This document shows positions 42,118 to 56,063 of a stretch of DNA of 64,000 nucleotides, in pieces. The number at the start of each line of letters is the position of its first letter. Within the stretch, counting starts at the first letter, position 1. The notes beneath the pieces are model-generated. The model was given only the letters and a program-made list of their open reading frames with translations, made no database searches and was not told where the DNA came from. The position numbers and the translations under genes were made by a program. This DNA is from Hyunsoonleella pacifica (GTDB lineage Bacteria; Bacteroidota; Bacteroidia; Flavobacteriales; Flavobacteriaceae): the NCBI RefSeq assembly GCF_004310335.1, contig NZ_SIRS01000004.1:186001-250000 (forward strand), written 5' to 3'.

Positions 42118-42125
42118 TAAAACCA

Positions 42126-43133
42126 TTAACCCTCTGGAAACCCGTTTAATGCTAAAGTCTCTAGTTCATTAGCCTTGTTTTCAAAAATTAAAAACACCTT
42201 TAATTCAGGGTAAGATTTTAAAAAAGTAGTTACACCATCAATACCCATAGCTTGAAAAGCAGTAGCATAACCATCAGCAGTCATACAATCTTTTGCTATT
42301 ACAGAGACACTCAAAATATTAGTTTTTGAAGGATATCCTGTTTTAGTATCAATAATATGTGCAAATCTATTTCCGTTTTCATCTACTTTAAACTTACGGT
42401 AAGTCCCAGATGTAGCCATAGCTTCGTCTTTTAAGCTTATCGCCTTAAAAACAGTTTGCCCTCCATCAAATCTAGGTTCATCTAAACCAACTCGCCAAGG
42501 TTTATGTTTCTCTTTATTCTTACCTTTTACTCTAAGCTCGCCACCTATTTCAACCAAGTAGTTATTGATATTTTTACTTTCTAAAAATTCACTAATTGCA
42601 TCAACCCCATACCCTTTTGCAATGGCATTAAATTCTAAATAGGTATTGGGGAGCTTTACAACTTTACTCTCCTCTAATTTTACGTTATCAAACCCAACAT
42701 ACTCCATTAATCCATCAATAGTCGTGCTATCAGTTAAAAACTTGTTTTCCTCCGCTCCAAAACTCCAAGCATTTACAACATCTCCAATTGTAGGGTCAAA
42801 AACACCTTGAGTCGCTTTGTATATCATTTTTGAAGCTGAAAATACATTTTTAAAATGTTGATCTACCTCAACTAGTTCATTTCTGTTTAATTTAGAAATA
42901 TCTGAATTTGGTATGTATGTTGACAATGATGCATTAATTGCAGCAAACAAGCTATCAAACTGAATGATATAATTTACTTCATCATCATAAATAATGCTAT
43001 AACTGGTCCCAAAAACAGTACCAGAAAGTGACGTGTTTTTTTCTAAGTTATCATCTTTTTTTGAAACATCCTGCTTACATGAAAAAACGAGGAAAGGCAA
43101 CAGTGCAATGCATAAAACTAGTACTTTTTTCAT
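42126..43133 (-). CDS. apbE: FAD:protein FMN transferase (flavin transferase, lipoprotein)
   Basis: This 335-residue lipoprotein (lipobox LVFSC, Cys19) attaches FMN covalently to Thr in NqrB/NqrC-type proteins on the periplasmic side, using FAD. Recognisable features are GTSYSIIY near 43, FDPTIGDVVNAWSFG, EFNAIAKGYGVDAISE, YLVEIGGELRVKG and the Mg-binding HIIDTKTGYPS. Its gene directly follows, without a spacer, a small conserved gene. The complete nqr operon whose products need it lies 10 kb downstream. Confidence 0.95.
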   Translation of the reverse strand: MKKVLVLCIALLPFLVFSCKQDVSKKDDNLEKNTSLSGTVFGTSYSIIYDDEVNYIIQFDSLFAAINASLSTYIPNSDISKLNRNELVEVDQHFKNVFSASKMIYKATQGVFDPTIGDVVNAWSFGAEENKFLTDSTTIDGLMEYVGFDNVKLEESKVVKLPNTYLEFNAIAKGYGVDAISEFLESKNINNYLVEIGGELRVKGKNKEKHKPWRVGLDEPRFDGGQTVFKAISLKDEAMATSGTYRKFKVDENGNRFAHIIDTKTGYPSKTNILSVSVIAKDCMTADGYATAFQAMGIDGVTTFLKSYPELKVFLIFENKANELETLALNGFPEG

Positions 43134-43511
43134 CTAATTTAAGTTTGATTCTATATATTGAATGCCATTATATTCTATTAAGTAATCTTTATTGAGATAA
43201 ACAGGTAAATCTTTACCATCTGGATTACCTAAACCAACCCCTGCATAAAGCACTTTTGCGTCTTTCTCAAAAGCATGCTTTTTAAAAGATTCCATCCACA
43301 CAATATCATAATTATTAGGATTCTCAGGTAAAAGAACGGCACGTACTATTACAAAATAATATTGACTGTTTTTATCAATACAGACAAATTGTGGATGTTT
43401 TTTAAGTTGACTATTTATTGCAATAAACTCAAAACCACGCTGCTCTAAATCCTTACCAACATGGTTCATCGCCAAATTGTGAAGCTCTTGTTTTGATAAG
43501 GGTTTATTCAT
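43134..43511 (-). CDS. Small conserved flavobacterial protein adjoining apbE
   Basis: This 125-residue soluble protein has no signal peptide or Cys cluster. Its pattern (an N-terminal helix, then VCIDKNSQYYFVIVRAVLLP and VLYAGVGLGNPDG) resembles an alpha/beta domain of the restriction-endonuclease-like or SH3-like kind. Homologues, as I recall, are often labelled NqrF by automated annotation, but there is no ferredoxin, FAD or NADH motif, so I do not use that name. Its stop codon directly abuts the apbE ATG, which implies strict cotranscription and possibly a role in NQR maturation. Confidence 0.65.
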   Translation of the reverse strand: MNKPLSKQELHNLAMNHVGKDLEQRGFEFIAINSQLKKHPQFVCIDKNSQYYFVIVRAVLLPENPNNYDIVWMESFKKHAFEKDAKVLYAGVGLGNPDGKDLPVYLNKDYLIEYNGIQYIESNLN

Positions 43512-43515
43512 GTCA

Positions 43516-43523
43516 CAAAAATA
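43516..43523 (-). promoter_or_regulatory. -7 promoter box for the small gene/apbE operon
   Basis: On the minus strand this reads TATTTTTG, an exact TAnnTTTG match, only 5 bp upstream of the ATG at 43511. If used, the transcript would have almost no leader. Confidence 0.4.
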
Positions 43524-43538
43524 CTAAAAGTAAATAGT

Positions 43539-43579
43539 ATGATGACATTTTTAAACACTTTCGATGCATTATTAAATTT
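43539..43579 (+). promoter_or_regulatory. Shared 5' element, copy 1 (possible ECF promoter)
   Basis: ATGATGACATTTTTAA (43539-43554) is followed after 7 bases by CGATGCATT and a TAAA-containing tail. The same two blocks with identical spacing occur at 44771. It lies 30-70 bp upstream of the lipoprotein gene at 43609. Two-block geometry of this kind is what an alternative sigma factor would read. Confidence 0.5.
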
Positions 43580-43608
43580 TTAGTATTCACCCTATTAAAG
43601 ACCTTATT

Positions 43609-44769
43609 ATGAAAACCGCATTGTATTTATTAACCACATTTACCCTTCTGCTTTTTTCTTGTGGACAAAACAGAACAAGCTCTAATGAGTTTGCTGATTT
43701 TGATTATGATACTGAAGCTTTTCTAGAACAAGATATAACACCTGATGAATTTAAAGACTCCAAATACAAACATACCGCAAACGAAAGCAGTAAATTAAAA
43801 GGGTATAAAGTAATGAGCAAACAATTTAATATGCCTGTTGGGATAATGCCAATTCCAATAAATTGGGAAATACTAAACAATAACAAGGAAGGTATCCTAT
43901 TCCAATCAAAAGACAACGTAAAAGTTTATAAGGAACGATTTATCTCCTATTTCTTTTCAAACAATCAACAACTAAACTACATGAACCAACAAAGTGGCAG
44001 ACCTGTAGCACCACCCAAAAATATTAATCAAATTATACAAGAGGATATAGTTCCCAATGTTAAGGCTCAAGGGTTAAAATTAGTAAACCAGTTTGCTTTA
44101 CCAAAATTGGCACAATTTGATAAACATTTTGACAGCTATTTGTTTAAAGGCATACCTGAAAACAAACAATTTCAATGTGTTGCAACAGAATGGATAAATA
44201 ACAAAGGAGAAAAGTCTATAGGTATAATTCGTTATTTCACTAATCAATATACAACCATAGGAGGTATGGATTGGGGGTATACTTTAAATATTATGGAAGC
44301 TCCAGCAAACATCTATGAAAACGCTAAAAAGTATTTTATAAACTCCTTGGTTAACTTTCAAATAAACCCTCAATGGGTGCAAACATCCAATAGTTATTAC
44401 TCACAAAAATCAAGACAAAGTACTGCTAATCATCAAAAGCGTATGGCTGCAATCAATGCACAAGGACAAACCATAAGAAATATTGGTAATACGTACAGCT
44501 CAATTTCAGACAGTAATTTTGAGAGTTGGAAACGCAGGAATGATATGAACAGCGCAGGTCATTCAAATTCAATAAATAATGGTATTTGGGAACGCACAAC
44601 TGTATCTAACCCAAATTCTGGACAACAGTACTATGTTGAAGGACAAAACAATTATTATTGGATGAATCAAAATAATGAATATGTAGAAACTGACAATTCG
44701 CTCTACAACCCCAATATTGATAATTCTATGAACAATCAAAATTGGACACAATATAATATTGAGAACTAA
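43609..44769 (+). CDS. Lipoprotein of unknown function, Asn/Gln-rich C-terminus
   Basis: This 386-residue lipoprotein (lipobox LLFSC, Cys18) has an acidic linker and a folded domain (about 60-260, with SKQFNMPVGIMPIPINWEIL; SYLFKGIPENKQFQCVATEW; IIRYFTNQYTTIGGMDWGYT). The C-terminal 120 residues are low-complexity and rich in Asn, Gln, Tyr and Ser. I recognise no family. The tail resembles that of surface-exposed or matrix proteins but has no T9SS sorting domain. It is preceded by the 5' element that also precedes the next gene. Confidence 0.7.
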   Translation: MKTALYLLTTFTLLLFSCGQNRTSSNEFADFDYDTEAFLEQDITPDEFKDSKYKHTANESSKLKGYKVMSKQFNMPVGIMPIPINWEILNNNKEGILFQSKDNVKVYKERFISYFFSNNQQLNYMNQQSGRPVAPPKNINQIIQEDIVPNVKAQGLKLVNQFALPKLAQFDKHFDSYLFKGIPENKQFQCVATEWINNKGEKSIGIIRYFTNQYTTIGGMDWGYTLNIMEAPANIYENAKKYFINSLVNFQINPQWVQTSNSYYSQKSRQSTANHQKRMAAINAQGQTIRNIGNTYSSISDSNFESWKRRNDMNSAGHSNSINNGIWERTTVSNPNSGQQYYVEGQNNYYWMNQNNEYVETDNSLYNPNIDNSMNNQNWTQYNIEN

Positions 44770-44770
44770 A

Positions 44771-44809
44771 ATGATGACATTTTTAAGTTACTCCGATGTA
44801 TTTATAAAC
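44771..44809 (+). promoter_or_regulatory. Shared 5' element, copy 2 (possible ECF promoter)
   Basis: ATGATGACATTTTTAA (44771-44786), 7 bases, then CGATGTATT and TATAAA. The first block is identical to copy 1 (43539) and CGATG is at the same distance (23 bp from the start of the first block). It begins 2 bp after the stop of the preceding gene and ends 26 bp before the ATG at 44835. Confidence 0.5.
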
Positions 44810-44834
44810 CAAGATTAATTAAAAGATAGCATTT

Positions 44835-45629
44835 ATGAAAGCATTTAAGTTATATAGCTTCTTAGCCATTATTATTCTATTATCGTCATGTAGTTCAAAT
44901 GACGATAATGATAACAACAATGCAAATAGCTTAGCAGGATTTACAACAAGGGATAACTGTCCCGAACTCCCAATTGGACCAACATCCGCATATTGGGAAT
45001 ATGCTAAAGGTAATCCTATCCCTTTAAATCAATTACCTGTACTCCAAAATCCTCAAGCTGCGTTTTCCTATGCTCATAGTAATAGAAATCTCCCTCCATT
45101 AACCTTAACACCTCCACAAGGTTACCAAGCTATTGACTACATAAACCCAAACACAAACCCTTTTGGAGTTAATATGATTAGAAACGATGGTGCTGTAGTA
45201 TGGAGATATGTACCTATTTCAACATATCCTGTTAATTTTTCAGACTCAAATATTTTAGATACCGAGGTAAATAATGTTACAAGTGCTTTTGGTTTCAATG
45301 GAAACTACAATGTACTTTGTGAGGCAACTCCAATAGTATTTAGTGAAAATGGTATCACAAGAATTTTTAGAGCTAGAATGATAGAGTTCAATAATACAAT
45401 CGCGCTCATCTGGATTGCGGCTACCTATGTTGAAAGCTTATTTACTGTAAGTGTAGCATCATCGGTATCTGCAGGTCCAAGTAACGAATATGCTAGCCTA
45501 GTTATGGATATATTCTTACCAATGAGTTTTCAATTATATCCATCAGGTAGTAGTCCATTATCCGATAGAGATAATGATGGCACACCAGATATTTTTGATC
45601 CTGAACCAGATAATCCTAATGTAAAATAA
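44835..45629 (+). CDS. Lipoprotein with C-terminal calcium-binding-like Asp repeat
   Basis: This 264-residue lipoprotein (lipobox LLSSC, Cys19) begins with an Asp/Asn-rich linker (SSNDDNDNNN). The middle is an unrecognised beta-rich domain. The C-terminus DRDNDGTPDIFDPEPDNPN matches the thrombospondin type 3 / calcium-binding loop (DxDxDGxxD) common in flavobacterial surface proteins. The gene is followed after 17 bp by the propeller lipoprotein gene, so the two form an operon behind the shared 5' element. Confidence 0.72.
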   Translation: MKAFKLYSFLAIIILLSSCSSNDDNDNNNANSLAGFTTRDNCPELPIGPTSAYWEYAKGNPIPLNQLPVLQNPQAAFSYAHSNRNLPPLTLTPPQGYQAIDYINPNTNPFGVNMIRNDGAVVWRYVPISTYPVNFSDSNILDTEVNNVTSAFGFNGNYNVLCEATPIVFSENGITRIFRARMIEFNNTIALIWIAATYVESLFTVSVASSVSAGPSNEYASLVMDIFLPMSFQLYPSGSSPLSDRDNDGTPDIFDPEPDNPNVK

Positions 45630-45646
45630 AATCTACTCTTATAATT

Positions 45647-46702
45647 ATGAAAGCAAATAATCATTTTAACACCCTTTTTATAACTCTTTTAGTTATCTCA
45701 TTTTTTACAATTAGCTGTAGCCAAAATGATGATAGTGAAAAGATAGAACAGGACACAACTGGCCTAAATGTGTACGTAGCAGGTATAAAATCCATAGACG
45801 AATTAACATCAGTAGCTGAATTATGGGTAAATAATTCCCCAAGAAATATAGCTAAAAGTAACGGCACTGGAACTGCCAGTTCTGTATTTGTTGATGGTAA
45901 TGACGTGTATGTTACTGGGCACGAATCTAACGGTTCACTTAATATCGCTACTGTTTGGAAAAATGGCACAGCAACAACACTTACAGATGGCAGTAAAAAC
46001 TCTACATCTGCATCAATCTTTGTAGATAACGGCGACGTTTATGTTGCTGGCGATGAAATAGAAAATATAGGGTTTAATGCTAGGGTATGGAAAAACGGCA
46101 TTGCAACCGATTTATCGGATGGTTTTCAATCCAGAGCAACTTCTGTTTTTGTATCAGGAGGCAATGTTTATGCTTCAGGTTGGCAATACATACAGTCGGA
46201 ATTTAGAGCTGTAGTTTGGAAAAATGGTATCGCAACACAACTTACTGATGGAACTAAGTTTGCAACAGCTAATTCAGTATATGTAGATGGCGACGATGTT
46301 TATGTTGGAGGTTCAGAGTATAACAATGCTACAGACAAAATATTAATTGCTAAAATTTGGAAAAACGGGGTACCTATAGATCTAACAGATGGGACAAATA
46401 GTGCTTTAGTTGAAGCTGTTTTAATTTCAGGAAATGATGTATACGCTGTTGGTATGGAAAATCTGGGTAATCAATCTGAAGACGCTGCTGCCATGTGGAA
46501 AAACGGAGTTATAACATATTTAACTGATGGCAATAATTACGCAAGAGCACATTCAATTTTCGTACATGAAGATGATGTCTACATAGCGGGTACAGAAAGA
46601 GGAGAAAACAACGAAGCTGCAACAATTTGGAAAAACGGTATTGCTACAAACTTAACCGATGGTAAAAATTTTGCCAGAGCACTTTCGGTTTTTGTTAAAT
46701 AA
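45647..46702 (+). CDS. Lipoprotein with predicted seven-bladed beta-propeller
   Basis: This 351-residue lipoprotein has a lipobox-like FTISC (Cys24). From about residue 40 to the end the sequence consists of seven repeats of 43-47 residues. Each has the pattern (D/N)VYVxGxE, a variable loop, then xxWKNGxATxLTDG, then a variable (A)xSVFVxG. The first repeat is the most degenerate (ELWVNNSPRNI). Seven repeats of this size suggest a closed seven-bladed propeller, a binding platform. DNA-level similarity between repeats is visible (for example GTTTGGAAAAATGG in several blades). It is probably cotranscribed with the preceding lipoprotein gene. Confidence 0.75.
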   Translation: MKANNHFNTLFITLLVISFFTISCSQNDDSEKIEQDTTGLNVYVAGIKSIDELTSVAELWVNNSPRNIAKSNGTGTASSVFVDGNDVYVTGHESNGSLNIATVWKNGTATTLTDGSKNSTSASIFVDNGDVYVAGDEIENIGFNARVWKNGIATDLSDGFQSRATSVFVSGGNVYASGWQYIQSEFRAVVWKNGIATQLTDGTKFATANSVYVDGDDVYVGGSEYNNATDKILIAKIWKNGVPIDLTDGTNSALVEAVLISGNDVYAVGMENLGNQSEDAAAMWKNGVITYLTDGNNYARAHSIFVHEDDVYIAGTERGENNEAATIWKNGIATNLTDGKNFARALSVFVK

Positions 46703-46757
46703 TAAAAATAAAACATGAAGTTAATAATCGAAATAATAGTCATTTAATAGTTTAGTA

Positions 46758-46788
46758 TTTGCAACAAAATGAAATAATTGTATATTTC
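46758..46788 (+). promoter_or_regulatory. Housekeeping-type promoter of the sigma/anti-sigma pair
   Basis: TTTG (46758-46761) and TATATTTC (46781-46788) are 19 bases apart, close to the ideal Bacteroidota TTTG-N19-TAnnTTTG. It lies 17 bp before the ATG at 46805 and overlaps an in-frame TTG at 46778, which supports the shorter start. Confidence 0.5.
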
Positions 46789-46804
46789 CTGTAGCTATTA
46801 TTTC

Positions 46805-47371
46805 ATGGGGAAAAAAATACACTTATTAAGTCAGTCTCAACTAGTTGATGCAATCAAAGAAAATGATGCTAAAATTCTGAAAGAACTATATACATCTAAC
46901 TATCCTAAAGTTGAAGCTTTAGTTTTAAAAAATAGTGGTTCTTCAGCACACGCAAAAGATGTTTATCAAGAGGCATTTATTACAGTTTGGACACATGTAA
47001 AACAAAATAAATTTACACCTCAAAATGATAGTGCCTTACAAGGTTATCTGTACAGGATTTGTAAAAACAAATGGACAGATGTTCTAAGATCTAAATCCTT
47101 TAGAGACGTTAAACCATTGAATACTGATACTATAAAAGTAGTGAAAGCAGAAGAAACACATAACAACCTAGAGGACAAAAAGTTAAAATTAACTATGACA
47201 GCTTTTGAAAACTTAGGACAGCCATGTAAGCAGCTACTAAAAACATTTTATTTTGAAAAGAAATCATTAAAAGAAATCTCAAAAGAATTGAATATAGAAG
47301 AAAACACAGCACGCAATAAAAAATATAGGTGCATGCAAAAATTAAGAGCTGTGGTTTTAGCCTCAAAATAG
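46805..47371 (+). CDS. ECF-type RNA polymerase sigma factor
   Basis: This 188-residue sigma-70 family protein has only regions 2 and 4. Region 2 (about 22-90) includes AKDVYQEAFITVWTHVKQNK, LQGYLYRICKNKWTDVLRSK. Region 4 (about 133-180) has the helix-turn-helix FEKKSLKEISKELNIEENTA. It directs RNA polymerase to a dedicated promoter set. The start is the ATG at 46805; an upstream TTG lies within the promoter. The next gene, a membrane protein of anti-sigma type, begins five bases after the stop, the usual sigma/anti-sigma arrangement. Confidence 0.92.
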   Translation: MGKKIHLLSQSQLVDAIKENDAKILKELYTSNYPKVEALVLKNSGSSAHAKDVYQEAFITVWTHVKQNKFTPQNDSALQGYLYRICKNKWTDVLRSKSFRDVKPLNTDTIKVVKAEETHNNLEDKKLKLTMTAFENLGQPCKQLLKTFYFEKKSLKEISKELNIEENTARNKKYRCMQKLRAVVLASK

Positions 47372-47376
47372 CAAAA

Positions 47377-48117
47377 TTGAAAGAAAAGAACAACATATCA
47401 GAAGAATTATTAGAAACGATAGAGCGGTATCTAAATGGCACTTTAAATGCTCAAGAACTAAAGGACTTTAATAGACTCTTAGATATTGATGAAGATTTTA
47501 AGACTCAAGTTGAAGATGTTCGTGCTATGCTATTTGGCATAGAAGCACAATCTTTAAAAGAACAATTAGACGAATTTCATGATGAAATCCCTAAAACAAA
47601 TACGGAAGATATCTCAAAACAAAAAATTCGTTTCTTAAGATACAGTAAAATTGCAGCAGCAGCAGCTATTATTATTGCTGTAGGAAGTATTTGGTTTTTT
47701 AGTGGAGAACCTAATGAAAAACTATACGCCAAATATTTTAAACCAGATCCTGGTTTACCCACTACTATGAGTAGCACTAATAATTTCGAGTTTTATGATG
47801 CTATGGTAAGCTATAAACATGGCGATTATAAAATTGCCATTGATAAATGGACATTATTAAATAAACAAAAACCTGAAAACGATACTTTAAATTACTTTTT
47901 AGGCGTTGCTTATTTAGCAACAAAAAATACAGAAGAAGCCATACCTTACTTGGAACGTGCAAGTGAAGCCGATGATAATTTTGAGTTTTTAAATGAAGCC
48001 TATTTCTACTTGGGACTTGCTTATATAAAAGAAGGTAATCTTGAACTTGCAAAAGAGAATTTAAGTTTAAGTGATATAGAAACAAGTAAAACTGTATTAG
48101 AAGAACTAGGCAAATAG
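47377..48117 (+). CDS. Membrane anti-sigma-like protein with periplasmic TPR domain
   Basis: This 246-residue protein starts at TTG 47377, five bases after the sigma gene. Earlier starts would overlap the sigma gene and add non-conserved sequence. Residues 1-88 are cytosolic, helical and acidic (ISEELLETIERYLNGTLNAQ, QELKDFNRLLDIDEDFKTQV), as in Bacteroidota anti-sigma factors. One membrane helix lies at about 92-108. The extracytoplasmic part has the conserved stretch YAKYFKPDPGLPTTMS, followed by two to three TPR units (about 138-235). I infer that it holds the sigma factor at the membrane until its periplasmic part is cleaved or bound. Confidence 0.8.
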   Translation: MKEKNNISEELLETIERYLNGTLNAQELKDFNRLLDIDEDFKTQVEDVRAMLFGIEAQSLKEQLDEFHDEIPKTNTEDISKQKIRFLRYSKIAAAAAIIIAVGSIWFFSGEPNEKLYAKYFKPDPGLPTTMSSTNNFEFYDAMVSYKHGDYKIAIDKWTLLNKQKPENDTLNYFLGVAYLATKNTEEAIPYLERASEADDNFEFLNEAYFYLGLAYIKEGNLELAKENLSLSDIETSKTVLEELGK

Positions 48118-48233
48118 TCTTTTTATGTATCAATTAAACAAGAAGAAAGATAATATCTAGTAATAATATTCTACAGTACTTATGATAACTGTAGTAAAGA
48201 GTCTCTAAAAGACATAAAACTTATAGCTTCATA

Positions 48234-51098
48234 ATGTTTATGAAACACATCAGAGTCATATTAGTCTTTATTTCTATTTTATGCATTTTACCAATTGAAG
48301 CGCAATCGCTTAAAAATGATACCTTTTCAATAAAATACAATTCTGCTGACAGTCTTTATAAAACAAGAGCTTATAAAAGCTCTGAAGTTATACTCCATAA
48401 ACTCATAAAGTTATTTGACGACAACAATCAAAACCAAATAGATTTAAAATATAAGTCTTACAACCTTTTGGGTTTGGTAAATGTTAAACTCCAAAAACTA
48501 GATAGCTCCAATTACTATCTCAATAAGTCTCTAAATTATATTGAAAACCCCATATTTAAAGATGAAGATAAAAATTATAATTTAGGGTTAACAAAAAATG
48601 CTATAGCATTGAATTTTTTCAATACAGGCCAAGTAGATAGTTCAATTTCTACACTACATGAAGCCATAAAACACCTTCACGATTATACTTCAAAAATAGA
48701 AGATGAAGAGAAAAAATTAAAGGCTATTAAAAAAAGGTTAGCTTGTATTGATAATCTAGCTGGTTTTTATAGAGGTGTTGGAGATAATGAGCGTGCTATA
48801 AGTTTAGCAACGTACTCCTACAAGAAAAAACAGAAAATTTTACCTGAAGATGATACAGCTCTCATCATTTCGCAATTAATCCTGGGGCATCTTCATCTTA
48901 TTGCCAGAAATTATAATAAAGCAGGAAATATTATTGACCAAGGTATTAAGAATATTAATAGAATTCCTTTTGCAAAAAGTTATGCTTATCTAGTTAGAGC
49001 TTCAATTTATGAGAACATTAAAGACTTTGAAAACGCAAAAAAATTTTATGAGATGTGTGAAGACGCGTATAGAGAAAATTTTAATGGTGTTTACTCAGGC
49101 TCGTTTTTAGATGGACTAGTAGAAATGTCTAATTTTTACACAAAGGTTGGCATGAATGAAAAGGCTTTATCTTTAGCAAAAGAAGGCTATAATTTTACGC
49201 AGCTAGACACATATAAAAATGAATTATTAGCCTATTACCAAGTACAAAATTTAGCAAATATTTACTTTGGCATAAAAGATTATAAAAATGCTATAAAGCT
49301 TAGCAATGAAGCGCTTTCCTTTTTTGACAGAGGACACTTAAAGATAAATAGCTTACTAGATTCTATTCAAAACGAAACAAGAAAACCAATATCGCTTTTA
49401 ATTAAATCTAAATCAGAATATTTGTCAAAAAAGCAACATACTGTTTATAGCTTAGATAGTATTTTAAAACAAACAAAAAAAGCGCTGAATATCTTAGAAA
49501 AAAAGAGAACTATTATAAAAACCCCTTCAGACCTTGAAACCCTTCTTTTTGAAAATAACGAGCTGATAGATTTTAGAAAACAATTACTTCTAGACTTATA
49601 TAATAAAACTAAAAGTGAGGACTATTTAACCAAACTTATCAGCCTTCACGAATCAAATCTATATAACAGAATCAGATCTAGATTAAATCTTAAAAAGGTT
49701 AGTTTTTCAAACATTCCTAAATCTATAATTACACGGGAGCAGTTTTTAAAAAATGAAATGATTAATGCTTTAAATGCAACAAATACCACTATTGAATCAT
49801 TTTTCGAAGCAAATCATCAATGGGATACATTCTTAGACTCATTGAAACATAAGTATCCTAAGTATTATAAAATGCGTTATGCTACCTTGGAAGAACCAAT
49901 AGATAATCTTCAAAAAAACATTCCACAAAACACATCTTTGGTTAGGTATCTTTACATAAGAGACACATTATATACTGCTGTAATAACTAAAACTGACAAA
50001 AAACTATTTAAACTAGAAACTAAAAATTTAAAGGAGCATATTTCTGTACTCTCCAATGATATCTTAGATATAAAAACAACAGCTAGTACATTACATAAAC
50101 TTTATGACTATTTATGGAAACCTATTGCACCGGAAATTACAACTAAAAGTGTAGTGGTTATACCCGATGGGGACTTATTTAACCTAAGTTTTGAAAGTTT
50201 AACAAGCTCAAAAATCTCTTCATTTAAAGAGCTTACTACTAAGAGCTTACTTTCTAAACACATTATTTCATACAACTATAGTCTTTTACTCATAGAACCG
50301 TCTAAAACTATTATTAATTATCCTAAAGATTTTATTGCATTCGCACCAGAATTCAATGAAAATATGAAAAAAAAATATAGTGTATCAATTAGCGACTCTC
50401 TTTCTGTGGATAAAACATATTTAAGCCTTCTACCTCAGCCATTCAGCGTAGATCTAGCCAAAGAGTATTCACGTTTATTTGATGGCGATTATTTTATAAA
50501 TGAAAATGCCTCAAAGCAAATTTTTAAAGATGAAGCTAACGAGCATAAAATAATCCATATTGGTACTCATGCTGAGTCTAATAATGTTTCTCCAGAACTA
50601 TCTCGTTTAATCTTTGCAAAAAATAGTGAAAATGATGATAACTCGCTTTACACTTATGAAATTTACAATGAAAACTTAAACTCTAATTTAGCTATTTTAA
50701 CAGCCTGTGAAACAGGGAAACCTACCTACCAAGCTGGAGAAGGTATGATATCATTAGCACACGCTTTTAATTATGCAGGGAGTGAGAGTATTTTAACAAG
50801 TCTTTGGAAGATTGATGAAAAATCAAGTTCAGAAATTATTGAGTTTTTCTTTGATAATATCAAAAAAGGAATACCTAAGGATGAAGCTTTACAACTAGCA
50901 AAACTTAATTATTTATCGCAAGCAGAAGGTAGAACAATAGCACCTAATTATTGGGCAGGTTTGGTTCTTATAGGAGACACTACTCCAATACATTTACAAT
51001 CTTCAAAAAATTTAATATGGTATTTTGTAGTAGCTGTATTGCTTGTTCTAATATCTTACTTAATCTTAAAGAGAAGAAAAACAAAACATACTACTTAA
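48234..51098 (+). CDS. Secreted, membrane-anchored TPR-CHAT protease
   Basis: This 954-residue protein has a signal peptide (about 1-23, ILPIEAQS). An array of TPR units (about 35-420) and a linker helical region lead into a CHAT (caspase-HetF-associated with TPRs) domain (about 630-915). The catalytic dyad is intact: His779 in IHIGTHAES and Cys825 in ILTACETGK. C-terminal features are GAGEGMISLAHAF-type (here QAGEGMISLAHAF) and NYWAGLVLIGD. A single helix at about 926-945 followed by KRRKTKH anchors the C-terminus, placing the protease in the periplasm. It follows the sigma/anti-sigma genes by 116 bp and probably acts on that pathway. An ATG two codons in (48240) is also possible. Confidence 0.9.
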   Translation: MFMKHIRVILVFISILCILPIEAQSLKNDTFSIKYNSADSLYKTRAYKSSEVILHKLIKLFDDNNQNQIDLKYKSYNLLGLVNVKLQKLDSSNYYLNKSLNYIENPIFKDEDKNYNLGLTKNAIALNFFNTGQVDSSISTLHEAIKHLHDYTSKIEDEEKKLKAIKKRLACIDNLAGFYRGVGDNERAISLATYSYKKKQKILPEDDTALIISQLILGHLHLIARNYNKAGNIIDQGIKNINRIPFAKSYAYLVRASIYENIKDFENAKKFYEMCEDAYRENFNGVYSGSFLDGLVEMSNFYTKVGMNEKALSLAKEGYNFTQLDTYKNELLAYYQVQNLANIYFGIKDYKNAIKLSNEALSFFDRGHLKINSLLDSIQNETRKPISLLIKSKSEYLSKKQHTVYSLDSILKQTKKALNILEKKRTIIKTPSDLETLLFENNELIDFRKQLLLDLYNKTKSEDYLTKLISLHESNLYNRIRSRLNLKKVSFSNIPKSIITREQFLKNEMINALNATNTTIESFFEANHQWDTFLDSLKHKYPKYYKMRYATLEEPIDNLQKNIPQNTSLVRYLYIRDTLYTAVITKTDKKLFKLETKNLKEHISVLSNDILDIKTTASTLHKLYDYLWKPIAPEITTKSVVVIPDGDLFNLSFESLTSSKISSFKELTTKSLLSKHIISYNYSLLLIEPSKTIINYPKDFIAFAPEFNENMKKKYSVSISDSLSVDKTYLSLLPQPFSVDLAKEYSRLFDGDYFINENASKQIFKDEANEHKIIHIGTHAESNNVSPELSRLIFAKNSENDDNSLYTYEIYNENLNSNLAILTACETGKPTYQAGEGMISLAHAFNYAGSESILTSLWKIDEKSSSEIIEFFFDNIKKGIPKDEALQLAKLNYLSQAEGRTIAPNYWAGLVLIGDTTPIHLQSSKNLIWYFVVAVLLVLISYLILKRRKTKHTT

Positions 51099-51960
51099 AC
51101 CTTACAAACTTAGAATTGTAGAATGTATAGTTAGACACAGGTATAACAGCATCTTTTTCTAAATGATACCAAGGTGAGAAACGGGTGTCTTCTAGATTTT
51201 TAACTAAATGCACACTTTGCGCAGGAGTATTACCTTGAAACAATAAATATATTTTGTCTCCCCTCGCATTCACAGCCTCATCACATATCATAACAATATG
51301 TCCTGGAGATCCACCTTTAATAAGCATATCGCCTAACTTTATATTTTTAACGTTATTAATTTTAGGAAGTTCGTTGTATAAGGACAACGTACCAGAATAC
51401 ATATAGATGAGATTAAGATATTTATAAAAATTGGCTTTAGAAGAATTCGCTGATGTAGTTTTCTGAAACATTACTTTATTTCCATTAATTTTTGGTCTAA
51501 AGCCTTCAGCGTATTTTTTCCAAGAGCAATAATGACCGCTTGTGAAATTAAATCCTATCTCATCTTTTCTATTATTATCCCACAAATATTCACTTCGTAT
51601 TCTAATTAATGCATCTGCACATTGTTGTAATCCGTTTTTAGGCACTGGAATATCTAAAACTCCAATATGTCCGCGTTGCCAAAAGTATTCAGTATCATCA
51701 TAATTAATAATTTTAGTCCCAAATGGTTTTAACTCATAGTTTCTCAAATACTCTTGAAACGAACCCTTTGGATAAGAGACCCTTGTGTATCCTTTTGGTA
51801 GATTTACTCTAGACTTAATCGTTAAACTGTCCTTATCTAAAAGATCAGTAGACACATTAGATACAAACGCAGTAGTAACTATATTCTGATGAGGAATAAT
51901 CAAAATAAATAATGTGATAAGAACAACAATAAAACCTGCAAAAAATAAAATTTTCTTCAT
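51091..51960 (-). CDS. DUF4846 domain protein
   Basis: This 289-residue protein has an N-terminal membrane anchor or signal (about 4-22) and a DUF4846 domain. Family marks include LPKGYTRVSYPKGSFQEYLR, LQQCADALIRIRSEYLW, YMYSGTLSLYNEL, IKGGSPGHIVMICDEA and LLFQGNTPAQSVHLVKN. The conserved Gly-His and Gln-Cys-Ala-Asp stretches suggest a cysteine-type fold related to NlpC-like enzymes, but activity is unproven. The start is placed at 51960; a longer frame to 51999 adds an Arg-rich stretch. The 3' end overlaps the CHAT gene by 8 bp, in convergent orientation. Confidence 0.83.
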   Translation of the reverse strand: MKKILFFAGFIVVLITLFILIIPHQNIVTTAFVSNVSTDLLDKDSLTIKSRVNLPKGYTRVSYPKGSFQEYLRNYELKPFGTKIINYDDTEYFWQRGHIGVLDIPVPKNGLQQCADALIRIRSEYLWDNNRKDEIGFNFTSGHYCSWKKYAEGFRPKINGNKVMFQKTTSANSSKANFYKYLNLIYMYSGTLSLYNELPKINNVKNIKLGDMLIKGGSPGHIVMICDEAVNARGDKIYLLFQGNTPAQSVHLVKNLEDTRFSPWYHLEKDAVIPVSNYTFYNSKFVRFK

Positions 51961-52069
51961 ATTTAAACAACGCTGCAGAGCTTTTCTTCGTATAGGCATA
52001 GTTAAAATTTAAGAGTAATTTTACATCTATAATTGATAATTTTAGTAATTTAATGTCAAAATTGTTTTT

Positions 52070-52519
52070 ATGGAAACTTCGCCTCGTTTAGAATCTGCAA
52101 TAAAAAAATTATATACTGCATTTCATAACAATACCTTAAATCCTGAATGTTGTCAACAATGTGCAGTAGGTAATATTTTAGACAATAGAGATAGCTGGAA
52201 GCACCTTTCAGATCGCCATGGCAGTTTAGTATTAAATTACGTTGGTAAAGTTCATCAAACTTTAGGCAGAACATTTAATGGCTATACCCCTCTTGAATTG
52301 CTTCAAATTGAACATGCTTTTTTAAGTACATGTGGCTTTCAAGTCCCCTTACACCATGGAAACACTAAACCTAAAGATCCAACTGATAAAGATGTGTTGT
52401 TTGAAGGTTTGTGTGCTGTAATAAGTTATTTGTGTGAATTAGAGGGCGTAGAAAATATTATGAATTACACTAAATTATTTGAAGTAGAAAACGATAAGCC
52501 AAAATACATGTTTTCTTAA
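52070..52519 (+). CDS. Small conserved flavobacterial protein next to the nqr operon
   Basis: This 149-residue soluble protein is rich in His and Cys. NPECCQQCAVGNILDNRDSW, a downstream His pair (FQVPLHHGNTKP) and Cys residues at LSTCGF suggest metal binding. Homologues, as I recall, are common in flavobacteria beside nqr genes and carry an automated NqrF label, although no flavin or ferredoxin motif exists. It is convergent with nqrF across a shared terminator. The function is unknown. Confidence 0.7.
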   Translation: METSPRLESAIKKLYTAFHNNTLNPECCQQCAVGNILDNRDSWKHLSDRHGSLVLNYVGKVHQTLGRTFNGYTPLELLQIEHAFLSTCGFQVPLHHGNTKPKDPTDKDVLFEGLCAVISYLCELEGVENIMNYTKLFEVENDKPKYMFS

Positions 52520-52536
52520 AACCTGTTTTTTCGACA

Positions 52537-52568
52537 AAAAAAACCAACTCTAATTGAGTTGGTTTTTT
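52537..52568. terminator. Bidirectional terminator between the small gene and nqrF
   Basis: Stem AAAACCAACTC / GAGTTGGTTTT with loop TAATT is flanked by A and T runs on both sides. It can serve both the plus-strand small gene and the minus-strand nqr operon. Confidence 0.88.
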
Positions 52569-52586
52569 ATTATCATAAATTGAAGA

Positions 52587-53897
52587 TTATCCTCCAAAGT
52601 CATCAAATCGAATATGCTCATCTGGGATACCGAAATCTTCTCCCATTTTTTGAACCGCTTTATTCATTAAAGGAGGTCCACAGAAATACAATTCTATATC
52701 TTCTGGCGACTCATGCTTGCTTAAATAGTTATCTATTACACAATTGTGAATAAACCCAACAAAACCGTCTCCAGGAGCATCTAAATCTTCTTTTACTTTC
52801 CAATTATCTTCTTCTAAAGGTTCAGATAAAGCTAAATAGAATTTAAAGTTAGGGAAGTTCTTTTCTAAGTCGTAGAAATGATCTAAGTAGAACAATTCAC
52901 GTTTAGAACGTCCTCCATACCAATACGTTACTTTTCTTCCTGTCTCTAAGGTTTTAAATAAGTGATATAAGTGAGAACGCATTGGTGCCATACCTGCTCC
53001 ACCTCCTACATAAAGCATTTCGCTTTCAGATTCATTGATAAAGAATTCTCCATAAGGTCCGGAAATAGTTACTTTATCTCCAGGTTTTTGAGCGAAAATA
53101 TAAGATGATGCTACTCCAGGATTTACATCCATCCATCCGTTTTTAGCGCGATCCCATGGCGGAGTTGCAATACGTACATTTAACATAATATCCCGCCCTT
53201 CTGCTGGGTAAGAAGCCATAGAATAAGCTCTCTCAACTATCTCATCATTTTTCATCACTAAAGGCCATAACCCAAACTTATCCCACTCAGCTTGAAACTT
53301 ATCTGGAGTTTCATGCTCTTCTGGATGTGCCGTAATGTCAATATCTGCATATTTAATTTCACACTGTGGTATTTCTATTTGAATATATCCACCTGCTTTG
53401 TAATTCATATCTTCTGGAATTCTTACTACAAATTCCTTAATAAAAGAAGCTACGTTGTAATTACGCACAACTTCAGCTTCCCATTTTTTAATACCAAATA
53501 CTTCCTCAGGAATTGTGATATCCATGTCTTGCTTCACTTTAACCTGACATGCTAAACGTGCTCCGTGTTGCAATTCTTTTCTTGAAAAATGAGGTGTTTC
53601 TGTAGGTAGAGCTTCTCCACCTCCAGAATTTACATGACATTCACATTGAATACAAGTTCCACCACCACCACAAGCAGATGGTAAAAATATTTTATTTCCT
53701 CCTAGTGTAGATAATAATGTACCACCAGAAGCTACTTCAATTTCCTTCTCTCCATTTATCGTAATTTTTACTGGACCTGAAGGTGATAATTTTTGTTTTA
53801 CAAAAAGTAATAAGCTTACTAGCAGTAATGTAATTAATAAAAATGCTGCGACCGTAGCTATAACTGTACCTGTTGTTCCTGCTGCTAAAATCATCAT
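52587..53897 (-). CDS. nqrF: Na+-translocating NADH:quinone reductase subunit F
   Basis: This 436-residue electron-input subunit oxidises NADH and passes electrons through FAD and a 2Fe-2S centre. An N-terminal membrane helix (about 8-28) precedes a plant-type ferredoxin domain with CGGGGTCIQCECHV and ARLACQV (four Cys). The reductase part has FAD-binding RAYSMASYPAEG and NADH-binding YVGGGAGMAPMRSHLYHL, EDIELYFCGPPLMNKAV. It is the last gene of the nqrA-F operon, with one base between it and nqrE and a terminator 18 bp beyond its stop. Confidence 0.97.
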   Translation of the reverse strand: MMILAAGTTGTVIATVAAFLLITLLLVSLLLFVKQKLSPSGPVKITINGEKEIEVASGGTLLSTLGGNKIFLPSACGGGGTCIQCECHVNSGGGEALPTETPHFSRKELQHGARLACQVKVKQDMDITIPEEVFGIKKWEAEVVRNYNVASFIKEFVVRIPEDMNYKAGGYIQIEIPQCEIKYADIDITAHPEEHETPDKFQAEWDKFGLWPLVMKNDEIVERAYSMASYPAEGRDIMLNVRIATPPWDRAKNGWMDVNPGVASSYIFAQKPGDKVTISGPYGEFFINESESEMLYVGGGAGMAPMRSHLYHLFKTLETGRKVTYWYGGRSKRELFYLDHFYDLEKNFPNFKFYLALSEPLEEDNWKVKEDLDAPGDGFVGFIHNCVIDNYLSKHESPEDIELYFCGPPLMNKAVQKMGEDFGIPDEHIRFDDFGG

Positions 53898-53898
53898 A

Positions 53899-54618
53899 CT
53901 ACTTTATAGTTTTAGTGTTTTCAGCTAATTCTTTAGCCTTTTCAGTTTCAATTTTTATATTTTCTATTGCGGTTTCAGTAGCTGGTTTCTCTTCTTCATC
54001 TCCTCCTGTTAGCATTCCACCAAAACTTAAAAACCCAATACCCATTAACCCGGTTATAATAAATGTAATCCCTAAACCTCTTAACGGCGCTGGTACATTA
54101 CTATATCTTATTTTTTCACGAATTGCAGCAATAGCTAAAATGGCTAGAAACCATCCTATACCAGAAGAAACACCATAATTAAAAGCTAATCCAAGTGTTT
54201 CAATCTCACGAGCTTGCATAAATAAAGACCCTCCCAAAATTGCACAGTTTACAGCTATTAATGGTAAAAAGATACCTAATGAATTATATAAAGATGGTGA
54301 GAATTTTTCAACGACTATTTCAACAAGTTGAACCATAGTTGCAATAGTTGCAATAAACATGATGAATGATAAGAAACTTAAATCGTAATCTACATATTCA
54401 TCTCCTAACCAAGACAATGCTCCTGGTTGTAATAAGTATTGATCTAACAACCAGTTTAAAGGTACTGTTATCGCTAATACAAATATTACTGCTGCACCTA
54501 GACCTACTGCAGTTGCAACTTTCTTAGAAACGGCAAGGTAAGAGCACATCCCTAAGAATACTGCGAATACCATATTATCAACAAAAATTGATTTGAAAAA
54601 TAATTCTAAATGTTCCAT
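53899..54618 (-). CDS. nqrE: Na+-translocating NADH:quinone reductase subunit E
   Basis: This 239-residue integral membrane subunit has six predicted helices. Helix 1 carries FAVFLGMCSYLAV and helix 4 VNCAILGGSLF, the two Cys-containing half-helix motifs that bind an intramembrane iron centre with NqrD. It is about 40 residues longer than the typical 200-residue NqrE. The extra part is a highly charged C-terminal tail (EEEKPATETAIENIK and beyond) typical of Bacteroidota forms. Separated from nqrD by 52 bp. Confidence 0.95.
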   Translation of the reverse strand: MEHLELFFKSIFVDNMVFAVFLGMCSYLAVSKKVATAVGLGAAVIFVLAITVPLNWLLDQYLLQPGALSWLGDEYVDYDLSFLSFIMFIATIATMVQLVEIVVEKFSPSLYNSLGIFLPLIAVNCAILGGSLFMQAREIETLGLAFNYGVSSGIGWFLAILAIAAIREKIRYSNVPAPLRGLGITFIITGLMGIGFLSFGGMLTGGDEEEKPATETAIENIKIETEKAKELAENTKTIK

Positions 54619-54670
54619 ATTTTTTAATTTTCAGTATTGGCTAGCAGTAAGTACTGCTTACTGTAACTGA

Positions 54671-55315
54671 TTAATCTTCTATTAATGCTTTATTTCTACT
54701 ACGTTGTACCCAAATAATTAATCCCACAACAATTAAGGCCATTGGTGGCATTAACATAAATCCGTTATTTTCATAACCTATAGAGTATACGCCAGTTTTC
54801 TCAATAGGATCTCCTAACACGGGAATTCCGAAAAGCGTCCCAGAACCTAGTAGTTCTCTAAAGAAACCAACTATTAATAAAATAACTGCATACCCAGCAG
54901 CATTACCAATACCATCTAAAAATGATTTCCAAGGGCCATTACCTAAAGCAAAAGCTTCAAAACGCCCCATGATAATGCAATTTGTTATAATTAATCCTAC
55001 GAACACTGCTAACGTTTTACTTAACTCATAAGCAAAAGCTTTTAACACCTGATCTACAATAATTACTAAAGAGGCAACTACGATAAGTTGTACAATAATT
55101 CTAATTTTTGAAGGAATGATATTTCTCATTAAAGAGATAACAACATTACCAATACCTAAAACAAAAAGTACCGCAACTCCCATTACCAGAGAAGCTTTTA
55201 ACTCTGCAGTAATTGCTAGGGCAGAACAAATACCTAATACCTGAATAGTAATTGGGTTATTGTCTGCTAACGGGTCTGTAATTAACTTTGCATCTTTTTT
55301 TGAAAGTAGTCCCAT
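54671..55315 (-). CDS. nqrD: Na+-translocating NADH:quinone reductase subunit D
   Basis: This 214-residue integral membrane subunit has six predicted helices and is paralogous to NqrE. The Cys-bearing half-helix motifs are present (VLGICSALAI near residue 28 and LIITNCIIMGRFEAF near 113). They provide the other half of the iron site at the NqrD/E interface. Its ATG lies 1 bp after the nqrC stop. The operon order is conserved. Confidence 0.95.
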   Translation of the reverse strand: MGLLSKKDAKLITDPLADNNPITIQVLGICSALAITAELKASLVMGVAVLFVLGIGNVVISLMRNIIPSKIRIIVQLIVVASLVIIVDQVLKAFAYELSKTLAVFVGLIITNCIIMGRFEAFALGNGPWKSFLDGIGNAAGYAVILLIVGFFRELLGSGTLFGIPVLGDPIEKTGVYSIGYENNGFMLMPPMALIVVGLIIWVQRSRNKALIED

Positions 55316-55316
55316 A

Positions 55317-56063
55317 TTATTTTAACGTTTTAAAGTAAGGTAAATATAATTTTAAATCTTTCTTAATCATGGCAGTAACACCATCACCAGTAATAGTTGC
55401 TCCAGCTAAAGCATCAACTTCATAATCATCTTTTATTTCATTTTTAGGGTCTGCATTTCCTTTAGCTACGGTAATACCTTTAAAGACACCTGCTTCAGTT
55501 AATAGCTGTTCTCCCTCAAAATCATCCATAAAATAACGTTGCTTGATATTCGCTCCTAAACCTGGTGTTTCTCCTGCATGATCAAAAAAAGCACCTTGAA
55601 CTACCATATCTTTATCTAGGGCTACGTATCCCCAAATAGCATCCCATAAACCTTTGCCTCTAATTGGAGCTATATAAAATGTTTTACCATCTTTCTCTCC
55701 AACAAATAAAGGTAATCTTCTAATTTCTCCATTTTTGGCTTTTGCTTGTTCTTTCTTAATATCTATTAAATAAGCTTCTTTATCTTCTTTAGCAACACCA
55801 TTTTCAATTACTAATTGTTTTTTGATGTACTTAGAAAATTCATCTGCCACCACATCTGTACCTACAAAAGTAATATCTCCTGTCCCTTCGTTTCCATTAA
55901 CACCCATAGCGTATAGAATATTTTGCTGCTTTTCCATACGTTTATTCTCATCAATATTTGGCCTCAAAGATGATGCTGTAAACGCCAATAATGAGCCTAC
56001 AACCACTACCATGGCTATAGCAAATATTATTGTATACGAATTTTTATCTGTATCCATTGCCAT
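55317..56063 (-). CDS. nqrC: Na+-translocating NADH:quinone reductase subunit C
   Basis: This 248-residue subunit has one N-terminal helix (about 10-30) and a periplasmic FMN-binding domain. The covalent flavin site is DALAGATITG, with Thr223 the likely FMN-bearing residue (consensus Dxx-S/A-G-A-T) modified by ApbE, whose gene lies at 42126. Family stretches include LWDAIWGYVALD and FDHAGETPGLG. The spacing to nqrB is 2 bp. Confidence 0.95.
   Translation of the reverse strand: MAMDTDKNSYTIIFAIAMVVVVGSLLAFTASSLRPNIDENKRMEKQQNILYAMGVNGNEGTGDITFVGTDVVADEFSKYIKKQLVIENGVAKEDKEAYLIDIKKEQAKAKNGEIRRLPLFVGEKDGKTFYIAPIRGKGLWDAIWGYVALDKDMVVQGAFFDHAGETPGLGANIKQRYFMDDFEGEQLLTEAGVFKGITVAKGNADPKNEIKDDYEVDALAGATITGDGVTAMIKKDLKLYLPYFKTLK

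Follow-up and report, generated by a model that had tools for sequence, protein, structure and literature searches.

A conserved gene trio of marine flavobacteria that probably forms an envelope sigma switch triggered by a caspase-like protease

In the genome of Hyunsoonleella pacifica, three consecutive genes on the plus strand encode an extracytoplasmic function (ECF) sigma factor (46805-47371), a membrane protein with tetratricopeptide repeats (TPR; 47377-48117) and a TPR-CHAT protease (48234-51098), according to the list of open reading frames (ORFs) of a stretch of 64,000 nt that we call the window (assembly GCF_004310335.1, contig NZ_SIRS01000004.1, positions 186,001-250,000, forward strand; coordinates below are those of the window). 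This trio is probably a conserved sigma switch in the envelope of marine flavobacteria that is triggered by a caspase-like protease. Sequence comparisons make it likely that the switch works by regulated intramembrane proteolysis (RIP), with the CHAT protein as site-1 protease of the adjacent anti-sigma protein. What is new here is a candidate cleavage site in a loop of the anti-sigma protein. The parts of the trio are as follows.

46805-47371, plus strand: ECF-type sigma factor, 188 aa (Pfam Sigma70_r2, 7.6e-12, and Sigma70_r4, 1.1e-5; TIGR02937 sigma70-ECF, 2.1e-25)
47377-48117, plus strand: membrane TPR protein, likely anti-sigma, 246 aa (Pfam TPR_2, 6.1e-10; one profile finds the family in all gene orders)
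47377-47640, plus strand: predicted cytosolic N-terminal helical domain, aa 1-88, the putative sigma-binding part (AlphaFold2 helices 9-19, 25-37 and 39-70)
47641-47700, plus strand: predicted membrane helix, aa 89-108, with the conserved Ala95-Ala96 (AlphaFold2, hydropathy, alignment)
47737-47784, plus strand: predicted periplasmic loop, aa 121-136 (KPDPGLPTTMSSTNNF), with the candidate cleavage site (AlphaFold2 coil; group-specific conservation; decay)
47767-47772, plus strand: Met131-Ser132, candidate scissile bond (conservation of M[SG] versus its loss)
47785-48114, plus strand: predicted periplasmic TPR domain, aa 137-246 (AlphaFold2 helices 137-245; Foldseek TPR matches)
48234-51098, plus strand: TPR-CHAT protease, 954 aa (Pfam CHAT, 2.3e-36; AlphaFold2 pLDDT 89, pTM 0.86)
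48234-48305, plus strand: signal peptide, aa 1-24 (MFMKHIRVILVFISILCILPIEAQ), read by eye
50088-50978, plus strand: CHAT domain, aa 619-915 (Pfam)
50454-50456, plus strand: Leu741, predicted S1-pocket position on helix alpha1 (AlphaFold2 helix 736-748; column statistics)
50568-50570, plus strand: catalytic His779 (His in 121 of 121)
50700-50702, plus strand: Thr823, two residues before Cys825, second predicted S1 position
50706-50708, plus strand: catalytic Cys825 (Cys in 121 of 121)
51009-51098, plus strand: predicted C-terminal membrane anchor and basic tail (AlphaFold2 helix 925-953; C-terminal hydrophobic segment in 113 of 115)

The candidate site lies in a 16-residue loop between the membrane helix and the TPR domain of the anti-sigma protein, a coil in the AlphaFold2 model, which holds DPGLPTTM/S (the slash marks the candidate bond). 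In most proteins of the window type this loop reads DPGLPT[TIV]M[SG]; in other subtypes it mostly ends in R[GS], and in a small clade Lys or Gln is found. The M[SG] pair is present in all 66 scored anti-sigma proteins of our named loci (one 416-aa match, L246, was left out of the motif scoring), the residues before Met being variable (PTT, ATT, PLK, ETN, ITP and others). With respect to the protease, M[SG] was found in 39 of 39 examined anti-sigma proteins of this subtype with a CHAT gene in cis, in 4 of 4 with CHAT elsewhere in the genome and in none of the 8 without window-type CHAT; of the 66 anti-sigma places concerned, 15 were unread (14 in genomes with CHAT and a second copy in G277), all eight CHAT-less ones being read. 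CHAT-less means here devoid of window-type CHAT: G036, G049 and G121 have other CHAT subtypes, and in G315, G392 and G405 the search was for the window type.

All eight CHAT-less loci share the synteny of the window: apbE and nqr (both identified by eye) enclose them, in the order apbE, a 125-aa gene, the trio, a 149-aa gene and nqr. Losses at such loci take several forms: at L052 the CHAT frame is broken with sigma and anti-sigma intact; L182 and L186 have lost window-type CHAT and retain sigma and anti-sigma; L187 (from the window's own genus), L188, L189, L335 and L336 have lost CHAT and sigma and keep the anti-sigma-like gene; L334 has a CHAT remnant and a broken sigma gene; and at L056 nothing but a remnant of CHAT is left, on the side of apbE. 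In the eight CHAT-less proteins, conserved positions are kept at 31 of 64 sites in the loop and at 204 of 224 in the TPR domain (Fisher 1e-12, the sites being dependent). Met131 and Val144, each kept in one protein, are the two most often lost sites, and in the membrane helix only three of the eight proteins retain Ala95 and only four Ala96. Partial motifs occur, L182 retaining Met131 (as MN) without Ser or Gly and L327 (the same protein as L334, of G315) retaining Gly without Met. Sites of the N-terminal domain are kept at 27 of 28 in the two proteins with sigma versus 52 of 70 in the five that lost it (p 0.011, sites again dependent). Judged from these kept-site counts, the fate of the N-terminal domain goes with that of sigma and the fate of the loop with that of CHAT, and the TPR domain follows neither. 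On the tree, window-type CHAT was lost about four times, and the loop was lost each time. The initial annotation of this stretch had proposed that CHAT cuts the TPR tail; the idea of a cut in this protein gains a candidate site that tracks both the presence of CHAT and its predicted S1 pocket, but its place shifts, the comparison making a cut in the linker that joins the membrane helix to the TPR domain more likely than one in the tail.

The second line of evidence is the match between this site and the predicted S1 pocket of the protease. In 110 paired loci, P1 was assigned by eye from the loops as Met in 23, Arg in 76 (including L064, L079 and L084, which read LRD), Lys or Gln in 10 and unclear in one (L215, placed in no class); loci superseded by longer fetches, anti-sigma proteins below 200 aa, CHAT proteins below 300 aa, duplicates and the second anti-sigma match of L196 were left out. 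An acidic residue at CHAT position 741 or 823 is found in none of the 23 Met pairs, in 76 of 76 Arg pairs and in 10 of 10 Lys/Gln pairs (86 of 86 basic or Gln pairs). Among 370 CHAT columns, 741 has the largest difference in acid frequency (0.95 with basic P1 versus 0.00 with Met P1; next column difference 0.53), and residue 823 is Thr in the Met class, Ser in most of the Arg class and Asp in 6 of the 10 Lys/Gln cases. In the AlphaFold2 model, helix 736-748, which carries 741, lies between strands 698-704 and 752-755, and 823 immediately precedes the catalytic Cys. The covariation with P1 class is observed; the S1 pocket on alpha1 and the loop before Cys is predicted. In clan CD, according to passages of one review of the clan (PMC4357240), the S1 acids of metacaspase (Asp95, Asp211) and of MALT1 (Asp365, Asp462) lie on alpha1 and L4, and MARTX-CPD, with Ala47 and Val138-Gly139 at these positions, takes Leu at P1; in the model, position 741 on alpha1 and 823 before Cys825 would correspond to these S1 elements. 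The same rule extends to other families: three loci with hydrophobic P1 (DPGLITSM/S, DPGLAVVM/S and DPGLPTTL/G) pair with L/T, A/S and L/A at 741/823, and five Arg-type loci (L354, L355, L356, L357 and L360) have E/S, as has L346 of this family.

The proteins themselves have the features that such a switch would need. The CHAT protein, the only CHAT match found by profile search in its genome, combines a His/Cys dyad with a caspase-like fold, which places it in clan CD (Pfam, alignment, AlphaFold2, Foldseek); the dyad, reported as intact in the initial annotation, is kept in all 121 aligned CHAT ORFs, the window's included. Its model runs from an N-terminal helix at the signal peptide through a TPR superhelix and the caspase-like domain to a C-terminal helix, with a low-confidence loop (829-834) after the catalytic Cys. 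Foldseek retrieves with it the Craspase TPR-CHAT protein (5.9e-13), separase and DdvA; a phmmer search of the window CHAT against the PDB gave no match, and a first PDB profile search was dominated by TPRs. Hydrophobic segments are found at the N-terminus of 111 and at the C-terminus of 113 of 115 full-length CHAT proteins, and simple hydropathy gives more Lys and Arg after than before the latter segment in 107 of 115. Because of these two segments and this excess, the protease is predicted to face the periplasm, on the same side as the TPR ectodomain.

The membrane protein starts at a TTG codon directly after the sigma stop. Its AlphaFold2 model (mean pLDDT 90; all models were built on our own alignments) has helices at 9-70, the membrane helix at 89-108, a short helix at 112-120, coil at 121-136 and TPR at 137-245; with one membrane helix in 79 of 85 such proteins and more Lys and Arg on its N-side in 80 of 85 by hydropathy, it is predicted to be single-pass with a cytosolic N-terminus. 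The initial annotation thus holds in its description of three adjoining same-strand genes, whose ORFs are present as it gave them, of a signal peptide and C-terminal anchor on the CHAT protein, and of protease and TPR tail on one side of the membrane, with which predicted topology (AlphaFold2, hydropathy) agrees; the helix that it placed at about 92-108 is likewise predicted as a single pass, with AlphaFold2 limits of aa 89-108. Pfam and NCBIfam likewise concur with its labels of ECF sigma, TPR membrane protein and TPR-CHAT, the anti-sigma label through weak matches only. As a side observation, the window CHAT is at its start (48234-48300) about 120-130 N-terminal residues shorter than most orthologues (about 1080 aa); the short form also occurs in several Hyunsoonleella and an Aureisphaera relative, and G296 of the same genus has the long form. 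The closest named relative that we found is Hyunsoonleella ulvae, whose CHAT protein is 84% identical to that of the window.

The trio is kept across Flavobacteriaceae and also outside that family, its genes standing in several orders. Of 199 Flavobacteriaceae genomes, 87 gave CHAT relatives and 82 the membrane protein, both being present in 77, the anti-sigma protein alone in 5, CHAT alone in 10 and neither in 107 (Fisher 2.6e-37, uncorrected for kinship); counts per genome are lower bounds, the best 4, 13, 7, 2 and 9 candidates being scored, depending on the search. A CHAT place lies within 12 kb of 118 of the 139 anti-sigma places and, on inspection, of 6 of the other 21 (20 fetched; G122:C108, broken by stops, was left out). 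In most relatives, the CHAT gene is hence found near the sigma and anti-sigma genes, the opposite of the separation that the initial annotation had named as fatal to its proposal. From the 137 CHAT places used (not counting a further short fragment of the broken G044 gene), 120 regions covering 121 of them were fetched, as the match plus 6 kb on each side, L114 being without a CHAT ORF by profile; in 120 CHAT loci (119 fetched and the window), sigma and anti-sigma both occur in 92, sigma alone in 7 and neither in 21. CHAT genes without the pair in this first fetch were read as exceptions, a reading that we abandoned as in many of them the pair lies just beyond the fetched stretch. For comparison, the window's own genome has 23 sigma70 region-2 matches in 4.13 Mb, and a random gene is estimated to lie within 1.5 kb of such a match in roughly 2% of cases.

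Four arrangements recur: sigma, anti-sigma and CHAT on the same strand (the window type), CHAT convergent to the sigma/anti-sigma pair, CHAT divergent from it, and CHAT divergent with intervening genes. With window-type profiles, 396 genomes at least 95% complete gave the anti-sigma protein in 64 and CHAT in 56, all 56 among the 64 (one of them, G044, with a broken CHAT frame), leaving 8 with anti-sigma and without window-type CHAT and 332 with neither. The dependence is thus one-way: window-type CHAT always occurs with the anti-sigma protein (56 of 56 genomes). In the named collection, which overlaps the 199-genome set, sigma and anti-sigma genes lie directly upstream of CHAT in 60 of 80 window-type loci (a script found 59, and L276 was recognised by eye); Aequorivita accounts for 15 of the remaining 20, and in four Aequorivita genomes the pair is found elsewhere (L185, L337-L339). 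Outside the family, 75 of 296 genomes of other families of the class match the anti-sigma family, some partially. That the trio consists of three unrelated neighbours which merely hitch-hike together is an explanation to which we give practically no credence: hitch-hiking would suit the stable synteny of the group A locus, but the association is kept in several arrangements, and the parts persist apart, with an intact site, in genomes of the Aequorivita type. We also observed two CHAT genes beside a single sigma/anti-sigma pair at L046 and L340 and, in another family of the class, 7-9 matches per genome to TPR anti-sigma proteins with a transmembrane segment (at least 9 in one) in G441, G696, G520 and G712; these multiple anti-sigma matches suggest parallel insulated pathways.

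Several points weigh against the reading of the trio as a protease-triggered switch. The independent sample is small, since the CHAT tree requires no more than two changes of P1 class and window-type CHAT was lost about four times: the S1/P1 match is coherent but reflects few independent events, and the losses amount to 3-4 independent pairs, with which a sign test cannot reach 0.05. Moreover, the Met- and Arg-class motifs fall in the same column in one alignment and two columns apart in another, and for Lys/Gln versus Arg, position 823 comes second (0.60) after column 901 (0.77). L182 keeps Met131 without window-type CHAT. By analogy with Csx30, the substrate of the Craspase TPR-CHAT protein, P1 need not be decisive, or strict, in this class of enzymes, because in D. 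ishimotonii no single alanine substitution abolished the cut of Csx30, loop length mattering as well, as stated in passages of PMC10028731.

Two residues outside the loop, Val144 and Lys157, decay as the loop does, being kept in 1 and 2 of the eight CHAT-less proteins, and this is how a docking surface would behave. An alternative is therefore that CHAT docks on the loop and TPR domain of the anti-sigma protein without cutting, another site-1 protease performing the release; both proteins carry TPRs, which could suit such docking. We consider this unlikely, as the catalytic dyad is kept in every one of the 121 CHAT ORFs, the type of site changes with the predicted S1 pocket, for which simple docking would give no reason, and Met stands in a coil.

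The anti-sigma assignment is a further point of weakness. It rests on the relatives more than on the window protein, for which the anti-sigma models give E 0.006-0.012 (at 0.012, 15.6 bits against a cut-off of 100); among 64 family members, 18 match the NCBIfam anti-sigma factor model at E up to 0.01, the best at 2.5e-8. Besides, five of the eight CHAT-less loci are without sigma (in a sixth it is broken), and the membrane protein persists there with its TPR domain intact, which is more than a pure anti-sigma factor would need. At the five loci that have lost sigma (L187, L188, L189, L335 and L336, where window-type CHAT is gone as well) the membrane protein remains, so its TPR domain must serve some purpose in its own right, and the protein likely has a further role beyond sigma and CHAT. 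These facts, together with the weak match of the window protein, would also suit a membrane TPR protein that is a sigma co-activator or an envelope scaffold processed by CHAT, sigma being separate. This, too, appears improbable to us, as sigma and the membrane protein occur together in the 60 of 80 loci mentioned above and also where CHAT is elsewhere (L185, L337-L339), the N-terminal domain decays when sigma is lost, and relatives match anti-sigma models. A FecR match was found neither for the window protein (Pfam) nor, among the best 25 of 55 families listed, for the 64 relatives.

The switch that we propose would operate as follows. The ECF sigma factor would be held at the inner membrane by the cytosolic N-terminal domain (aa 1-88) of the membrane TPR protein, which we infer to bind sigma, and the TPR-CHAT protein, anchored in the inner membrane, is predicted from its sequence to stand on the periplasmic side. 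Its TPR domain would sense an envelope signal and then activate the cut, placed by the comparative evidence in the anti-sigma linker at Met131/Ser132; sister subtypes would cut at Arg/Gly or Arg/Ser, or after Lys or Gln. The TPR ectodomain would be shed, leaving a periplasmic stub of about 23 residues, and by analogy with RseA and RseP the stub may then undergo intramembrane cleavage by an M50 site-2 protease, a gene for which is present in this genome, sigma being released. The conserved Ala95-Ala96 of the membrane helix may belong to this second cut, which is a guess. Gene content, conservation and covariation are thus observed, topology and fold come from prediction, and cleavage, sigma binding, signal and second cut are what we infer.

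Transcription of the trio bears on what CHAT might otherwise do. The sigma gene starts at ATG 46805, an earlier in-frame TTG (46778) falling inside the following promoter-like element.

46758-46788, plus strand: promoter-like element TTTG-N19-TATATTTC upstream of the sigma gene (pattern match)

We take this element to be of the Bacteroidota primary-sigma type. Of 90 group A sigma genes, 26 are preceded by the pattern TTTG-N18-20-TAnnTTT[GC], versus 0.86 by Markov expectation; the pattern is not rare as such, with 2 matches in the window versus 5.3 by shuffling, and the other match lies directly upstream of a tRNA-Gly gene. Autoregulation by the ECF sigma, considered as the source of the shared upstream signal, was rejected because the motif has the form of a vegetative promoter; by this motif, the genes of the window group run on from a vegetative-type promoter. 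That CHAT is instead an output of sigma, a periplasmic effector with other substrates such as neighbouring exported proteins, finds some favour in sister groups, where the gene at position -1 from CHAT codes for a subtilase-like lipoprotein (23 members of a cluster of 24 loci) or for a PKD/DUF7849 protein (22 members of another cluster of 24 loci). It is nevertheless very improbable, given the vegetative-type promoter of the window group and the fact that it leaves unaccounted for the tracking of CHAT presence and S1 type by the loop.

The subtilase-like protein of these groups (Peptidase_S8, tested with Pfam in L183 and L190; further loci include L195, L211, L213 and L214) may act as a co-effector or supply a second protease to the cascade. 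At L219 (6298-8250 and 10867-11310) and similar loci with a CHAT protein of about 860 aa, a PKD/DUF7619/DUF7849 protein and a retropepsin-like aspartyl protease flank CHAT, the latter in 20 loci, 19 of them at +1 (one protein of each kind was tested with Pfam). In the window, the ORFs flanking the trio look like apbE, DUF4846 and nqr genes (DUF4846 by Pfam, the others by eye), and three genes upstream of sigma (43609-46702) encode exported-looking proteins of 386, 264 and 351 aa; Pfam gave nothing above cut-off for them, and some syntenic loci (L032, L037, L040, L043 and L334) have relatives of these proteins. A search for Rfam RNA elements in 41000-56000 gave none at the gathering threshold.

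Several known systems resemble the trio. In RIP of the RseA-DegS-RseP and RsiW types, a single-pass anti-sigma factor is first cut on the periplasmic side; here, in contrast, the site-1 protease would be a CHAT cysteine protease encoded beside its substrate, and the ectodomain is a TPR array. In FecR-type anti-sigma/TonB surface signalling of Bacteroidota, an ECF sigma factor likewise adjoins a membrane regulator, but the trio has no TonB receptor gene. In Craspase, Csx29 (TPR-CHAT), an ECF sigma (CASP-sigma) and the sigma-binding substrate Csx30, cut in a flexible loop, are encoded together; the window CHAT domain matches by profile at E 1.7e-7, and the top Foldseek match cited above has a TM-score of only 0.34 on the query. 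To our knowledge, Csx30 is not a transmembrane TPR protein. Craspase differs in being switched by target RNA through Cas7-11 and is not described as exported, whereas here a signal peptide and an anchor are found. According to passages of PMC10028731, which also names RIP of the RseA/RsiW type, Csx30 inhibits an ECF sigma, and in D. ishimotonii Csx29 cleaves it within a loop, at 427-429, deletion of M427 abolishing cleavage; passages of PMC9729208 place the cut in Scalindua after L407. By analogy, these hydrophobic P1 sites resemble the Met class. A Craspase-like CRISPR link of the trio was rejected, as the three proteins have no PADLOC match; the scope is these proteins and the look of the flanking ORFs, without a genome scan for cas genes.

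DdvA of Myxococcus xanthus joins an anti-sigma factor and TPR-CHAT in a single chain, which is a Rosetta-stone hint: the PDB titles of 8rot and 8rw5 speak of a transmembrane anti-sigma factor and a CHAT domain-containing chain, and CHAT matches at 838-977 with E 1.9e-5 (Foldseek 1.6e-11, TM-score 0.23); with phmmer, the DdvA alignment was not seen for two other CHAT domains. The window and the tabulated group A loci differ in having separate ORFs, CHAT with its own signal peptide. DdvS controls an antiphage island with a type III-B CRISPR system, according to part of PMC12288465, and the signal inactivating DdvA was described as unknown in 2015 in the relevant passage of PMC4374960. Literature searches, covering open-licence PMC texts, gave no paper on CHAT and anti-sigma in Bacteroidetes, none there on ECF sigma with CHAT and TPR, and none since 2023 on CHAT with transmembrane anti-sigma and cryo-EM; CHAT with sigma factor and tetratricopeptide led to Craspase and one paper on Leptospira, CHAT protease cleavage sites in bacteria to Craspase throughout, and ECF sigma with anti-sigma and tetratricopeptide in Bacteroidetes to PorA/SigP. 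Because only such papers were covered, the searches support novelty weakly. The wiring of the trio is, as a prediction well supported by sequence, a variant of the known caspase-sigma theme sited in the envelope.

If this is true, many uncharacterised TPR-CHAT proteins of Bacteroidota would have a role outside CRISPR, with substrate and bond named, and a caspase-like site-1 protease would be added to the ways of switching ECF sigma factors. A wider view, on which we are nearly evenly divided and lean slightly to doubt, is that Bacteroidota possess CRISPR-independent envelope modules, distributed over several families of the class, in which CHAT proteins are dedicated site-1 proteases, each keyed by P1/S1 (Met, Arg, Lys/Gln) to its own anti-sigma protein, so that a single cell could run several of them insulated from one another, Craspase and DdvA being derived or parallel. 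A family with three apparent P1 specificities would make clan CD specificity comparable through natural pairs and give a hint of where the sigma branch of Craspase may come from.

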